IMG/VR virus record: IMGVR_UViG_3300030118_005192
Coordinates: 1 to 40,901 of that record
DNA: 40,901 nucleotides
Strand: one strand, 5' to 3'
Source: a virus
Both the position numbers and the translations under genes were made by a program. Below are positions 1,134 to 40,767 of the stretch, piece by piece; the first letter of the stretch is position 1, and each line of letters begins with the position of its first letter. The notes beneath the pieces were generated by a model, which saw only the letters and a program-made list of their open reading frames with translations, was not told the origin of the DNA and ran no database searches.

Positions 1134-3557
1134 ATGGCTGAAACAATTTTAAAAAGTTCATTTCCTAGTCAAATAGCTTCTGATGAAGAAAAATCAACAT
1201 TTGAATATGGGGAAAAAGTAGCAAAAGCAATTGAACACGAGTGGTTTAAAAGAGACAATGGTGCTACAAGATTTTATTCCAATAGGGATGAATATCATAG
1301 ACTTCGTTTATATGCAAGAGGAGAACAATCAGTAAAAAAATATAAAGATGAATTATCTATTAATGGTGATTTATCTTATTTAAATTTAGATTGGAAACCT
1401 GTACCTATTATACCTAAGTTTGTGGATATAGTTGTAAATGGAATGTCAGATAGATTATTTGATATTAAAGCTTTTTCACAGGATCCCGCATCTGTAAAAG
1501 AAAGAACTGATTATGTCCAAAAAATTATGGATGATATGCAGGCTAAACAGTTTAATGATAATGTGCAAGAAAAATTAGGAATAAATTTATTTAATACTGA
1601 TCCAAATAAATTACCTTCTGATGATCAAGAATTAGCTTTACACATGCAGACAGAGTATAAGCAAGCTATTGAAATTGCAGAAGAACAAGCTATAAATACT
1701 ATATTAAATCAAAATAATTATGATTTAACACAAAAAAGGGTAAATTATGATTTAGTTACATTGGGTATTGCATCGGTAAAACATGAGTTTAATAAAGCAG
1801 AAGGTATTAAAGTTAGATGTGTTGATCCTGCTGATTTAGTATATTCATACACTTATTCTCCTTATTTTGATGATATTTATTATATAGGTGAGGTAAAATC
1901 TGTAACAATAAATGAAATAGCAAAACAATTTCCTAATTTAGATGAAGACACGCTTAAAAAAATATCTAGTCAAGGTTATCAAAGTGCATCTTCACATAAT
2001 AGATATATAAATGAAGATAGCGTATTAGATTCAAATAGTATACAAGTATTATACTTTAATTATAAAACATACAACAATGAAGTTTACAAAATTAAAACAA
2101 CAGCTACAGGAGCTTCTAAAGCGATTCAAAAAAATGATCAATTCAATCCGCCAGAGGATATTGAAAATCTTTTCGAAAAAGCAAGCAGATCAATAGACGT
2201 AGTATATGAAGGAGTATATGTATTAGGTGTTAATATGCTTCTTAAATGGGGTCTTGCAAAAAATATGATTAGACCTAAAAGTGATACAACAAAGGTAATG
2301 ATGAATTATCATATTGTTGCACCTAGAATATATAAAGGAAGAATTGAGTCTTTAGTTAGTAGAATTACAGGATTTGCTGATATGATTCAACTAACACATT
2401 TAAAATTACAACAAGTAATGTCAAGAATGATACCTGACGGTGTTTATCTTGATGCAGATGGTCTTGCTGAAATAGATTTAGGTAACGGCACAAATTATAA
2501 TCCGCAAGAAGCATTAAATATGTTTTTTCAAACAGGTTCTGTTATTGGTAGATCTTTAACGCAAGATGGTGATATGAATCCAGCTAAAGTGCCAATACAA
2601 GAACTTACATCTAATGGTGGTAATAATAAAATAGCTTCTTTAATACAAACGTATAACTATTATCTTCAAATGATAAGAGATGTAACCGGATTAAATGAAG
2701 CAAGAGATGGAAGTAAACCTGATCAGTATGCTTTAGTTGGTGTACAAAAATTAGCTGCCGCTAATTCAAATACAGCTACAAGACATATATTGCAAGCTAG
2801 CTTATATTTAACGGCAAGAGTTGCTGAAGCAGTTAGTTTAAGAATATCAGATATATTAGAATATTCACCAACTAGAGAGGCTTTTATATCTTCAATAGGA
2901 AGATTTAATGTAGGAACATTAGATGATATTAAAAATATGCATTTACATGATTTTGGAATATTTATAGAGCTTGCTCCAGATGAAGAAGAAAAAGCAAGAC
3001 TTGAAAATAACATACAAGCAGCTCTTTCAAAAGATCAAATATTTCTTGAAGATGCAATTGATATTAGAGAAATAAAAAATATTAAATTAGCTAATCAATT
3101 GTTAAAAGTAAGAAGAAAAAAGAAAATGAATGATGATATGCAACGTCAGCAGCAAAATATACAAATGCAAACACAATCAAATGCACAAGCCGCACAGGCT
3201 TCAGCACAAGCTGATGTTCAAAAACAACAAGCATTAACTCAACAAAAAGCGGAATTAGCTCAAATTGAGTCTAATCTTGAAATACAAAAATTACAACAAG
3301 AAAAAGAATTGAAAAAAGAATTAATGTCATATGAATTTCAATTAAATATGGCATTAAAAGATAAAGAATCTGAAGTCTATACTAGCAGAGAAAAATTTAA
3401 AGAAGATAGGAAAGACGAAAGAACAAGAATTCAAGCTAGCCAACAGTCTAAATTAATTGAACAAAGAAAAGATAGAAAAGGAGAGCAAGAATTTGAATCC
3501 GCTGGTAATGATACAATGGGCAGTGGATTTAATTTAGAGGCATTTGAACCTCGTTAA
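1134..3557 (+). CDS. Portal protein
   Basis: The 807-aa product is most likely the dodecameric portal at the capsid vertex through which DNA passes. Supporting points: position between terminase and scaffold/capsid genes, size typical of the large podovirus portals, a conserved-looking N-terminal block (YARGEQSVKKYKDEL, then LNLDWKPVPIIPKFVDIVVNGM, about residues 60-105), and a C-terminal third (about 640-790) that is Gln/Lys/Glu-rich and predicted to be helical coiled coil, like the barrel/crown of portals. The N-terminal block resembles portals of marine environmental phages and crAss-like phages from memory. Starts at ATG two bases after the terminase stop, no Shine-Dalgarno. No missing parts seen. 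Confidence 0.85.
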   Translation: MAETILKSSFPSQIASDEEKSTFEYGEKVAKAIEHEWFKRDNGATRFYSNRDEYHRLRLYARGEQSVKKYKDELSINGDLSYLNLDWKPVPIIPKFVDIVVNGMSDRLFDIKAFSQDPASVKERTDYVQKIMDDMQAKQFNDNVQEKLGINLFNTDPNKLPSDDQELALHMQTEYKQAIEIAEEQAINTILNQNNYDLTQKRVNYDLVTLGIASVKHEFNKAEGIKVRCVDPADLVYSYTYSPYFDDIYYIGEVKSVTINEIAKQFPNLDEDTLKKISSQGYQSASSHNRYINEDSVLDSNSIQVLYFNYKTYNNEVYKIKTTATGASKAIQKNDQFNPPEDIENLFEKASRSIDVVYEGVYVLGVNMLLKWGLAKNMIRPKSDTTKVMMNYHIVAPRIYKGRIESLVSRITGFADMIQLTHLKLQQVMSRMIPDGVYLDADGLAEIDLGNGTNYNPQEALNMFFQTGSVIGRSLTQDGDMNPAKVPIQELTSNGGNNKIASLIQTYNYYLQMIRDVTGLNEARDGSKPDQYALVGVQKLAAANSNTATRHILQASLYLTARVAEAVSLRISDILEYSPTREAFISSIGRFNVGTLDDIKNMHLHDFGIFIELAPDEEEKARLENNIQAALSKDQIFLEDAIDIREIKNIKLANQLLKVRRKKKMNDDMQRQQQNIQMQTQSNAQAAQASAQADVQKQQALTQQKAELAQIESNLEIQKLQQEKELKKELMSYEFQLNMALKDKESEVYTSREKFKEDRKDERTRIQASQQSKLIEQRKDRKGEQEFESAGNDTMGSGFNLEAFEPR

Positions 3558-6488: not shown

Positions 6489-7253
6489 ATGAAAACAAAA
6501 ACAATTTCTCCTGAAAAAAATTGGGAGATAAAAGATAGAACTTATGTGTTAACAGGCAATTCAACGCCTATAACATTTACATTAGCATCTAAACATCATT
6601 CAAGAACACCTCTTCTTTGGTTTGACGAAGAAAAAGGTTATGCTAGAGAATTAAGATATGCTACTAATCAACATACTCCATTTAGAGACGAGCAAAAAGG
6701 GCATGTTACTTTAGCTCATATTGTTTTTAGAGATGGTGCATTATATGTACCTAGAACTAATCAATGTTTACAAAAATTACTTTCTCTTTATCATCCTGGT
6801 AAAGGTGGTTTTTATGTAGAAGTTGATAATGTTGAAGAAGCTAAAGACGATTTAGTAGATTTAGAATTAGAAATAGAAGCTTTAAATTTAGCTAGAGAAT
6901 TAGAAATTGACCATGCAGAAGCCGTACTTAGAGTTGAGCATGGATCTTCCGTTACTAGCTTAACTAGCCAAGAAATAAAAAGAGATATATTATTATTTGC
7001 AAAAAATAATGCAGGTCTTTTTATAAATCTTGTTAAAGATGAAAATGTTCAGTTAAGAAACTTTGCTATTAAAGCAGTTGAAGCTGGCATAGTTGATTTA
7101 GATGGTGATCAAAGAAATTTTTATTGGGCAAAAAATAAAAAGAAATTGATGACAGTTCCTTTTGAAGAAAATCCATATTCAGCATTTGCTGCATATTTAA
7201 AAACTGACGAAGGTACACAAGTTTATAAATCAATAGATAAAAAATTAAAATAA
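6489..7253 (+). CDS. Unknown structural-region protein following the capsid gene
   Basis: 254 aa. I start it at ATG 6489 rather than at the longer in-frame ATG 6444, because the upstream stretch would translate the terminator hairpin and its T-run into an implausible hydrophobic leader, and the ATG at 6489 has the A/T leader common here. N-terminal part is beta-like (residues 1-120); residues 120-160 form an acidic helix (EEAKDDLVDLELEIEALNLARELEID), followed by an alpha-helical C-terminal region. I do not recognise a family. Position between capsid and ring proteins suggests a head-stabilising or head-tail joining role, but that is inference only. It is bracketed by two independent hairpins. 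Confidence 0.75.
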   Translation: MKTKTISPEKNWEIKDRTYVLTGNSTPITFTLASKHHSRTPLLWFDEEKGYARELRYATNQHTPFRDEQKGHVTLAHIVFRDGALYVPRTNQCLQKLLSLYHPGKGGFYVEVDNVEEAKDDLVDLELEIEALNLARELEIDHAEAVLRVEHGSSVTSLTSQEIKRDILLFAKNNAGLFINLVKDENVQLRNFAIKAVEAGIVDLDGDQRNFYWAKNKKKLMTVPFEENPYSAFAAYLKTDEGTQVYKSIDKKLK

Positions 7254-7262
7254 TTTATCTTA

Positions 7263-7299
7263 TAGTGGTAGGGCTGCTATAAGGTAGCCCTATACACTA
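7263..7299 (+). terminator. Second stem-loop, likely attenuator or terminator
   Basis: TAGTG pairs with CACTA at the base and AGGGCTGC pairs with GTAGCCCT above a small internal loop, with loop TATAAG. It begins nine bases after the preceding stop codon. No T-run follows (AAAATAATAATT instead), so it may slow polymerase or protect mRNA ends rather than be a classical terminator. The core AGGGC/GCCCT is the same as in the hairpin before this gene. Confidence 0.6.
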
Positions 7300-7313
7300 A
7301 AATAATAATTAAT

Positions 7314-8021
7314 ATGGTTAGCGTAGATACAGTATATCAAAGAGTATTAGCAATTTTGAATAAAGAAAATCGTGGTTATATGACACCACAGGAATTTAAT
7401 CTTTTAGCTAATCAAGCACAATTAGAAATATTTGAACAATACTTTTATGATTTAACACAGTTTAATAGAGGTGGTCAAATAAATAATGAGTTTGCAAATA
7501 TTGTAAAAAATATAAAAGAAAAAATAAGTTTATTTAAAAAGACAGCAACATTAACTTATTCAACAGATACATATGCGTTGCCGTCAGATTTATATAGGTT
7601 AGGCACAGTTTATTACAATGATTCAATTGAAGTTGAACCAATTGATCAAATAGAATTTTTATATATAAATACTTCACCTTTAACAAAGCCTGATACTACA
7701 AGGCCTATATACACTAGATCAGGATTATTAATAAAAGTATATCCTACAACAATTACTTCTAATACAGAAATAGCAGCTTCATATATTAAAAAACCCGCTA
7801 CAGTCGAATGGGCTCACGTGGAGGTTACAGATGATAATTCAACAGATATGGTAAAGCTGTTTGATTCTTCGTCTGCTGTTGATTTTGAATTACACGAATC
7901 AGAAGAAACTGTATTAGTATATAAAATATTAGCTTATGCTGGATTAGTTATAAAGCAACCTGAAATAAGTCAGGTAGCAGAAACTAAAGACAGTTTAAAA
8001 ACACAAAAAGAAAAATCATAA
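7314..8021 (+). CDS. Probable head-tail connector / ring (adaptor) protein
   Basis: A 235-aa protein. The start is helical (VYQRVLAILNKENRGYMTPQEFNLLANQAQLEIFEQYFYDL, about residues 7-47), then beta-rich segments with Tyr and Pro (YALPSDLYRLGTVYY). This helix-then-sheet layout, size, and the place between head genes and the nozzle gene match T7 gp11-type adaptors and the ring proteins of crAss-like podoviruses. The start was chosen at ATG 7314, 15 nt past the hairpin. No direct family motif, so the function is inferred from layout and context. Confidence 0.65.
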   Translation: MVSVDTVYQRVLAILNKENRGYMTPQEFNLLANQAQLEIFEQYFYDLTQFNRGGQINNEFANIVKNIKEKISLFKKTATLTYSTDTYALPSDLYRLGTVYYNDSIEVEPIDQIEFLYINTSPLTKPDTTRPIYTRSGLLIKVYPTTITSNTEIAASYIKKPATVEWAHVEVTDDNSTDMVKLFDSSSAVDFELHESEETVLVYKILAYAGLVIKQPEISQVAETKDSLKTQKEKS

Positions 8022-40315: not shown

Positions 40316-40336
40316 ATTTATTTAATTTAAATTTAG

Positions 40337-40409
40337 TGGCGCTGGCAGGATTCGAACCTGCGACCTTCGGGTTATGAGCCCGACGAGCTGACCTCTGCTC
40401 CACAGCGCA
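40337..40409 (-). tRNA. tRNA-fMet (initiator, anticodon CAT)
   Basis: Full cloverleaf on the minus strand: acceptor 2-7 GCGCTG with CAGCGC, D-stem GAGC/GCTC, anticodon stem TCGGG/CCCGA around CTCATAA (anticodon CAT), T-stem GCAGG/CCTGC with TTCGAAT loop. The marks of a bacterial initiator tRNA are present: unpaired first base (T1 against C72), A11-T24 in the D-stem, and three G-C pairs next to the anticodon (GGG/CCC). The CCA end is not encoded (CTAAAT follows A73), so it is added by the host enzyme. The D-loop is one base shorter than in the E. coli tRNA. Confidence 0.9.
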
Positions 40410-40416
40410 ATAAGAA

Positions 40417-40566
40417 AGAAGTGGATGAAACAGGAATGATTTCGTGGCCGCGACTATCAGTACTTTCTGTTTATATCATCTTTCCGACCTACAATTACTT
40501 GTCAGTGCGTAGGACGCACCTTGCACCATCTGACTTTCATTATCTACAGTCGTTCCTGACACTTCT
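40417..40566 (-). ncRNA. Structured RNA, copy 1 of a tandem pair (strand inferred)
   Basis: AGAAGTG (40417-40423) pairs with CACTTCT (40560-40566); CAGGAA (40431-40436) with TTCCTG (40553-40558); CGACT (40451-40455) with AGTCG (40548-40552), adjacent to the previous helix. A perfect 6-bp hairpin GTGCGT/ACGCAC (40505-40519) and GTCAG/CTGAC around it are extra in this copy. Unpaired blocks TCTGTTTATATCATCTTTC (40466-40484), CCTACAAT (near 40488) and ATTATCTACAG (40539-40549) are identical to copy 2. It is next to the initiator tRNA. I think it is read leftward with the tRNA and the early genes, but the sequence alone does not fix the strand. No known RNA family recognised. Confidence 0.75.
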
Positions 40567-40573
40567 ATATTGT

Positions 40574-40718
40574 GGAGGCGGATGAAACTGGAATGAACCG
40601 GCTTTAGGTGACATTCCCCCCGTTTCCGGTAATCTGTTTATATCATCTTTCTAGCCTACAATCCAACCAACGGGGTTGTTTAATACTCTGATTATCTACA
40701 GCCTTCCAGACTACCTCC
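40574..40718 (-). ncRNA. Structured RNA, copy 2 of a tandem pair (strand inferred)
   Basis: Same plan as copy 1 with changed pairs: GGAGG (40574-40578) with CCTCC (40714-40718); CTGGAA (40588-40593) with TTCCAG (40704-40709); GGCT (40600-40603) with AGCC (40700-40703). The GATGAAA spacer between the first two helices is the same in both copies (40581-40587 here). The shared blocks lie at 40633-40651, 40655-40662 and 40691-40701. The two hairpin arms differ between copies (here CAACC/GGTTG near 40664-40679 and ACCGG/CCGGT). In the leftward direction this is the first RNA, then copy 1, then the tRNA. Confidence 0.75.
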
Positions 40719-40731
40719 TCTATAGTTGTAT

Positions 40732-40767
40732 GTTCCTGAATGAGATTTAACCATTTGAACAAGGAAC
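40732..40767. other. Hairpin between the last gene and the RNA pair
   Basis: GTTCCT (40732-40737) pairs with AGGAAC (40762-40767) around a 24-nt A/T-rich loop. In the leftward direction it lies directly after the stop codon of the gene at the window end, so it may be a processing or weak termination site that separates the coding mRNA from the RNA cluster. No T-run is present. Confidence 0.4.

Follow-up and report, generated by a model that had tools for sequence, protein, structure and literature searches.

The tandem RNA pseudoknots of the ToxI type III antitoxin are near-identical repeats of about 36 nt, and the put antiterminators of phage HK022 are small folded RNA elements that occur as a pair where early transcripts begin. 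TLD-only tmRNA, which is reduced to the tRNA-like domain (TLD), has been reported from phage DS6A and from plastids, with the tmRNA of mycobacteriophage DS6A comprising scarcely more than this domain and a molecule similar to it shown to inhibit tmRNA strongly, perhaps through titration of SmpB (PMC4131195, PMC11915505). GOLLD and ROOL are phage RNAs that lie near tRNA islands and form nanocages, with the marine GOLLD env-38 located downstream of a Met-tRNA (PMC12286853).

The two tandem units of ~150 nt described here lie at the right end of the 40,901 nt of IMG/VR virus record IMGVR_UViG_3300030118_005192 (the window). Like GOLLD and ROOL, they are structured phage RNAs beside a tRNA, with pseudoknots and variable domains (PMC12286853), however GOLLD and ROOL are about five times larger and differ in architecture, and their Rfam covariance models find no match in the window at gathering thresholds or at E<=10. 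Rfam 15 as a whole, a search asked for in the preliminary description of the locus, matches the tRNA alone at gathering thresholds, and relaxing the cut-off to E<=10 adds no relevant family; as that description had supposed, the fold is neither GOLLD nor ROOL, and the pseudoknot RNA class is new to Rfam. Hammerhead, RNase P and attC-like readings find no support.

Setting, fold and strand of the two units

The G+C content is 29.7% across the window and 43% in the two units. Genes of the left half lie on the plus strand and those of the right half on the minus strand, the latter encoding RNR, thymidylate synthase, a T7-type primase-helicase, an exonuclease, ERF and a sigma factor. A marine Bacteroidota bacterium is the probable host, since among named phages the primase is best matched by that of Cellulophaga phage phi10:1 (44%). 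Read on the minus strand, the right end runs from unit 2 across 7 nt to unit 1 and, after a further 7 nt, to a tRNA-Met and the early genes, with both units on the same strand as the tRNA and these genes (Table 1); the tandem arrangement and the tRNA neighbour are as first described. By sequence, the tRNA has initiator features, namely three G-C pairs (GGG/CCC) in the anticodon stem and a 1-72 mismatch, U1xC72, and it is the only match in the window to the cloverleaf with anticodon arm (RF00005), which the units do not match. The record stops about 180 nt upstream of unit 2, and a minus-strand hairpin, GUUCCU...AGGAAC, at 40732-40767 is possibly one more block of the array.

Each unit is a pseudoknot RNA, and both belong to one new class. 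On the minus strand the elements follow in the order P1, short linker, P2, arm B, AAA, GAUGA, UAUAAACA, arm A, P2', GUU, UCAUC, C, P1', with GAUGA of the joint pairing with UCAUC outside P2 to form a 5-bp pseudoknot, and with the joint AAAG-NNNN-UAUAAACA invariant between the variable arms B and A. Two of the helices noticed earlier, AGAAGTG/CACTTCT (GGAGG/CCTCC in the other copy) and CAGGAA/TTCCTG (CTGGAA/TTCCAG), do have different bases in the two copies, and they covary among relatives. For the third, the 3' strand (AGTCG or AGCC) was correctly placed, however it pairs with CGACC (~40485-40489) in unit 1 and with AGCC (~40653-40656) in unit 2. The partner first proposed, CGACT (~40453) or GGCT (~40603), does not hold in L013 and is missing in L006. 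The blocks taken to be single-stranded are indeed identical between the copies, however they hold the pseudoknot GAUGA/UCAUC, which had been missed and is backed by variants in relatives.

The strand of the preliminary description needs correcting, and a fold on the plus strand is rejected. In favour of the minus strand, the arm B pairs of L013 (CGGC/GUCG) and of unit 2 (GGC/GCU) include G.U wobbles there that become A.C mismatches on the plus strand, and arm B of the short relatives L020, L028, L177 and L220 is a GCC-GAAA-GGU hairpin on the minus strand; relatives are, furthermore, co-directional with their tRNAs. Single-sequence folding (MFE) of the units gives z values of -1.7 to 0, which are not significant on either strand, and the evidence for the fold is therefore comparative.

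Table 1. Positions of the two pseudoknot RNA units, their parts and the adjoining tRNA in the window, with supporting evidence.
Feature	Position	Strand	Evidence and remarks
Unit 1, complete pseudoknot RNA, 150 nt	40417..40566	-	Aligned in A6; covariance model R1 matches the core only (22.5 bits), because arm B is long
Unit 1 P1 5' strand AGAAGU (+G at 40560)	40561..40566	-	Pairs with 40417-40422 ACUUCU; covariation, fold
Unit 1 P1 3' strand ACUUCU	40417..40422	-	Covariation, fold
Unit 1 P2 5' strand CAGGAA	40553..40558	-	Pairs with 40431-40436 UUCCUG; covariation, fold
Unit 1 P2 3' strand UUCCUG	40431..40436	-	Covariation, fold
Unit 1 arm B	40484..40552	-	Basal helix CGACU/GGUCG and apical hairpin; fold; basal pairs covary
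Unit 1 pseudoknot strand GAUGA	40476..40480	-	Partner UCAUC 40424-40428; covariation
Unit 1 pseudoknot partner UCAUC	40424..40428	-	Covariation
Unit 1 invariant UAUAAACA	40468..40475	-	Alignment of 15 units
Unit 1 arm A, variable	40437..40467	-	Common to L013/L019 and L222 elements
Unit 2, complete pseudoknot RNA, 145 nt	40574..40718	-	R1 match over full model, 40.4 bits, E 1.4e-6, with unit 2 in the training set
Unit 2 P1 5' strand GGAGGU	40713..40718	-	Pairs with 40574-40579 GCCUCC; 6/6 P1 pairs change on both sides (15 units)
Unit 2 P1 3' strand GCCUCC	40574..40579	-	Covariation, fold
Unit 2 P2 5' strand CUGGAA	40704..40709	-	Pairs with 40588-40593 UUCCAG; 100% of cells paired; U-A/A-U switch 5/15
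Unit 2 P2 3' strand UUCCAG	40588..40593	-	Covariation, fold
Unit 2 arm B, variable	40651..40703	-	Basal helix GGCU/GGCU, conserved interior UGUAGAUAAU ... GAUUGUAG; fold; basal pairs covary
Unit 2 pseudoknot strand GAUGA in joint AAA-GAUGA-UAUAAACA	40643..40647	-	100% of cells paired; two-sided changes in 4/5 pairs
Unit 2 pseudoknot partner UCAUC	40581..40585	-	Covariation
Unit 2 invariant UAUAAACA	40635..40642	-	Identical in 15/15 units; imposed by the search pattern in some of them
Unit 2 arm A, variable hairpin ACCGG...CCGGU	40594..40634	-	34 nt, 88% identity to internal arm of L155 TLD-only tmRNA (1612-1645)
tRNA-Met(CAT), initiator-like	40336..40409	-	ARAGORN; Rfam RF00005 66 bits; 7 nt downstream of unit 1

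Relatives and covariation

Exact and gapped pattern scans of viral contigs, together with 80 related phages fetched from the 538 relatives reported by the primase alignment A3, yield 16 units in 15 virus contigs, two in the window and the others in L006, L013, L019, L020, L021, L028, L174, L177, L189, L220, L222, L226, L229 and L231. P1, P2, the AAAG-NNNN-UAUAAACA joint and the covarying 5-bp pseudoknot define the class and are common to 15 units, which range from ~75 to 190 nt and are each closed by their own P1. Nearly all adjoin a tRNA or tRNA-like unit: a co-directional tRNA-Met in the window, L013, L019, L021, L174, L177, L189 and L222, tRNA-Met on one side and tRNA-Gly on the other in L020 and L028, and, in L220, L226 and L231, a tRNA-like unit that lacks an anticodon, with the L229 element lying inside a tmRNA-like gene.

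In alignment A6, whose 15 units are related to one another and were segmented by hand with the structure in mind and the arms trimmed, 96.1% of 307 cells are standard pairs compared with 78.2 +/- 1.3 after shuffling (0 of 500 shuffles as high), changes on both sides occur in 15 of 21 pairs compared with 8.7 expected, and the covariation score is 0.550 against 0.211. Pairing falls to 24-51% in slid controls, in which partners were moved by 1-3 columns. The pseudoknot helix is 100% paired, with 4 of its 5 pairs changing on both sides across the 15 units, complementarity here having been part of the acceptance criterion for L220, L222, L226, L229 and L231. Its variants are GAUGA/UCAUC, GACAA/UUGUC, GGUGA/UCACC, GACAG/CUGUC and GGAGC/GCUCC, the second to fourth of these coming from L174, L177 and L189 respectively, which were found by searches without a pairing requirement. 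When the pseudoknot strands were left almost free in the pattern, all matches adjoining tRNAs or tRNA-like units proved complementary and the others did not, except L229. The preliminary description attributed the fold to selection rather than chance and staked this on homologs with compensatory changes in the helices; relatives exist, and they carry such changes in every helix, the pseudoknot included. Its observations are in sum partly confirmed, and its interpretation is supported.

Several further matches are regarded as chance: five in genome contigs, none with pseudoknot complementarity, and nine others (L217, L219, L221, L223, L224, L227, L228, L230 and L232) that have neither strict complementarity nor an RNA context. 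A loose viral pattern scan gave 74 stretches, of which the real ones were those already known, and R1 run over the 80 relatives added no member to the known set.

Arms in common with TLD-only tmRNAs

In related phages the site upstream of tRNA-Met is a hypervariable RNA array, with many relatives carrying a run of small structured RNAs in place of the pseudoknot units. Scanning for an acceptor stem and T-arm without a tRNA call gave 43 candidate tRNA-like units, some of them doubtful and mostly of 70-120 nt, the majority with acceptors of the GGGCGUG/CACGUCC type (G3.U70), a D-loop like AUAUGGU(UUUGACG) and A-CUA 3' ends. G3.U70 is the alanine identity element. The Rfam tmRNA model RF00023 (gathering score 47) scores 64.7 bits on L144 231-312, 42.6 bits on L226 1390-1480, 35.6 bits on L155 1595-1676 and 31.4 bits on L220 1042-1120 (-), and does not call the tRNA-like unit of L231. 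We read the short units as tmRNAs reduced to an alanine-type tRNA-like domain, since about 80 nt leaves no room for the usual tag frame. Such TLD-only, CDS-less tmRNAs appear widespread among relatives of the window phage, sometimes several to an array and many with G3.U70. A pseudoknot unit directly adjoins a TLD-like unit in L220, L226 and (uncalled) L231. ARAGORN and Rfam found no TLD-only tmRNA in the window, where only the pseudoknot RNAs and the tRNA are seen before the record ends about 180 nt beyond unit 2.

The arms of the pseudoknot RNA recur in other RNAs of these phages. Arm A of unit 2 matches an internal arm of the L155 TLD-only tmRNA at 30 of 34 nt, arm B of L226 is a 94-nt module that is free-standing in L181, L135 and L136 (84-86%), arm B of L006 and L013 recurs in L151 (92-94% over 48 nt), and arm A of L006 recurs in L135 (93% over 44 nt). 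On these matches, arms are shown to have been exchanged between TLD-only tmRNAs and the pseudoknot RNA. The window copies therefore do not reflect simple duplication followed by divergence, as had been proposed; the core was kept and the arms, which are interchangeable, were exchanged.

Other modules circulate in the same arrays. The module GACGAGUAGCUUAAUUAGG...CACAUAAGUGAAUUGC, which is arm B of the L226 pseudoknot RNA and whose 5' end resembles a tRNA D-arm, stands free in the arrays of L135, L136, L140, L144, L181 and L212, and an internal module, AAAUAGGAG-hairpin-CACACUAA, recurs in the L134, L181 and L191 arrays both free-standing and inside TLD-only tmRNAs. A second pseudoknot-like RNA of the same P1/P2/PK topology (GAGAGAC ... 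ACAGGU ... UUGUGG ... ACCUGU CCACAA ... GUCUCUC) is seen at L136 ~2980-3100, L178 ~2480-2630 and L181 ~485-640.

A further link to tmRNA comes from L229, an otherwise different and unrelated contig in which the pseudoknot core (P1 GACAUG/CAUGUC, P2 CUGGAA/UUCCAG, PK GGAGC/GCUCC) lies inside a tmRNA-like gene at ~6572-7921. This gene consists of a GGGGGUG acceptor, an GGUUUUGACAG D-loop, a candidate 27-aa tag GKTKSDRVAEGEAILASLFSAPVAIAA, the pseudoknot element and the 3' half, with the T-loop holding a group I intron (RF00028, 32.1 bits, below gathering, E 2.9e-6). T-loop introns are already known (PMC11915505); that of L229 carries an ORF at 7265-7873 (-). ARAGORN does not recognise the gene even with the intron removed, and R1, built without L229, does not find its element, so that the link rests on motif, helices and position. 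The candidate tag resembles in length the open tag frame of the annotated tmRNA of Cellulophaga phage Calle_2 (L277 1511-1870), which is unusually long at about 30 codons; read by eye, the fold of the pseudoknot units is not evident in that tmRNA. R1 matches inside none of 30 bacterial tmRNA loci, and the pseudoknot domain therefore appears not to be a general tmRNA feature; an R1 match in L258 (25.7 bits), outside the bacterial tmRNAs, lacks the joint and is put down to chance.

The pseudoknot RNA thus resembles tmRNA, itself pseudoknot-rich, in having arrays and arms in common with TLD-only tmRNAs and in its position inside the L229 gene, however the unit lacks a tRNA-like domain, a tag frame and an RF00023 match. 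RF00023 reaches at best 6.4 bits on the units, with the G3.U70 acceptor and T-arm domain found instead in the neighbouring RNAs of relatives, and ARAGORN at default settings calls no tmRNA in the window, the units being short, structured and closed by P1. Lowering the ARAGORN thresholds produced hundreds of meaningless matches, which were disregarded.

Possible roles of the pseudoknot RNA

The reading we prefer, with a little less than even confidence, is that this new pseudoknot RNA class, whose structure stands on covariation, belongs to a tmRNA-derived modular array that would act on host translation or ribosome rescue. The array suggests viral interference with host translation by means of RNA, and the initiator-like tRNA-Met beside the units also appears to point towards translation. 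The units, which on the minus strand open the early gene block and directly precede this tRNA, are one module of a hypervariable RNA array kept by phage relatives at the same site. Because the tmRNA-like gene of L229 contains the pseudoknot, the most economical origin may be a detached tmRNA pseudoknot domain, or else a domain borrowed by the L229 tmRNA. The array would be co-transcribed with the tRNA and cut by tRNA-processing enzymes, with an RNase P cut at the tRNA 5' end expected to free unit 1, and the products could occupy SmpB, alanyl-tRNA synthetase or the stalled ribosome, such that trans-translation would be blunted or redirected during infection. The precedent for such an action is DS6A, with its TLD-only tmRNA and the strong inhibition of tmRNA by a similar molecule (PMC4131195, PMC11915505). 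The interchangeable arms would then reflect an arms race or host-specific partners. Counting against this reading, only about 6 of the 80 close relatives of the window phage carry the RNA (pattern search and R1), and it is therefore dispensable.

A cis-acting leader, in which tandem structures that open the early transcript modify RNA polymerase as do the put sites of HK022, or set the stability or processing of the downstream tRNA and genes, is unlikely. The two copies do lie on the 5' side of the early genes and share the minus strand with these and with the tRNA, an arrangement also seen in several relatives, and like the put sites they are paired structures at the start of an early transcript; however, the pseudoknot RNA is not confined to operon starts, with units found between two tRNAs in L020 and L028, before a TLD-like unit in L226 and L231, and inside the tmRNA-like gene of L229. 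Furthermore, most relatives are without the unit, and the operon therefore does not depend on it.

Quite unlikely, too, is a decoy role against a host toxin or nuclease, in which a mimic of a type III antitoxin or tRNA-like substrate soaks up an abortive-infection or tRNA-cutting enzyme, with specificity provided by the variable arms. Tandem pseudoknots, hypervariable arms, tRNA-like neighbours and a patchy distribution would all suit such a role, however ToxI repeats are much shorter and near-identical, in contrast to ~150-nt units with different arms, and no toxin gene partner was identified among the proteins scanned, a subset of those of a window that ends about 180 nt upstream of unit 2, similarity having been compared within Rfam. 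In favour of a decoy, the ways in which phages evade type III systems, ToxIN among them, have been investigated (PMC5449768).

Very unlikely is a structural RNA in which the pseudoknot forms one domain of a larger RNA-only particle: GOLLD and ROOL do lie near phage tRNA islands and the window RNAs do adjoin tRNA-Met, however a match to the GOLLD or ROOL models is absent, and units of ~75-190 nt are each closed by P1. More improbable still are RNA-gene cassettes of a selfish or neutral kind, whose structured modules would recombine through their helix ends and be retained at a site that tolerates them, with no service to the phage. Such cassettes would account for modules that are patchy, mosaic and interchangeable, however four helices and UAUAAACA are constrained across diverged phages, which indicates selection on the RNA itself. 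Least probable of all is a self-cleaving ribozyme trimming the tRNA precursor, as might be imagined from the compactness of the pseudoknot, its invariant joint and the tRNA that directly follows, given that known ribozyme families in Rfam do not match and that cleavage of the L229 element would destroy the tmRNA-like molecule around it.

Extending the preferred reading, that of a tmRNA-derived array acting on translation or rescue, we offer as a doubtful but broader proposal that marine Bacteroidota phages may carry, beside an initiator tRNA, a recombining small-RNA kit from a dismembered tmRNA, in which TLD-only tmRNAs are joined by free pseudoknot domains whose arms can be swapped. This kit could take over or jam host ribosome rescue and initiation, as an RNA-based counter-defence or means of host takeover that diversifies by module exchange.

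The present analysis adds a covariation-supported RNA class absent from Rfam, and a group of uncultured marine phages in which TLD-only tmRNAs and pseudoknot RNAs are arrayed at one site and exchange parts. TLD-only arrays with swappable arms suggest that viruses may commonly use RNA to interfere with ribosome rescue, an idea open to testing in E. coli and in flavobacterial phages in culture.
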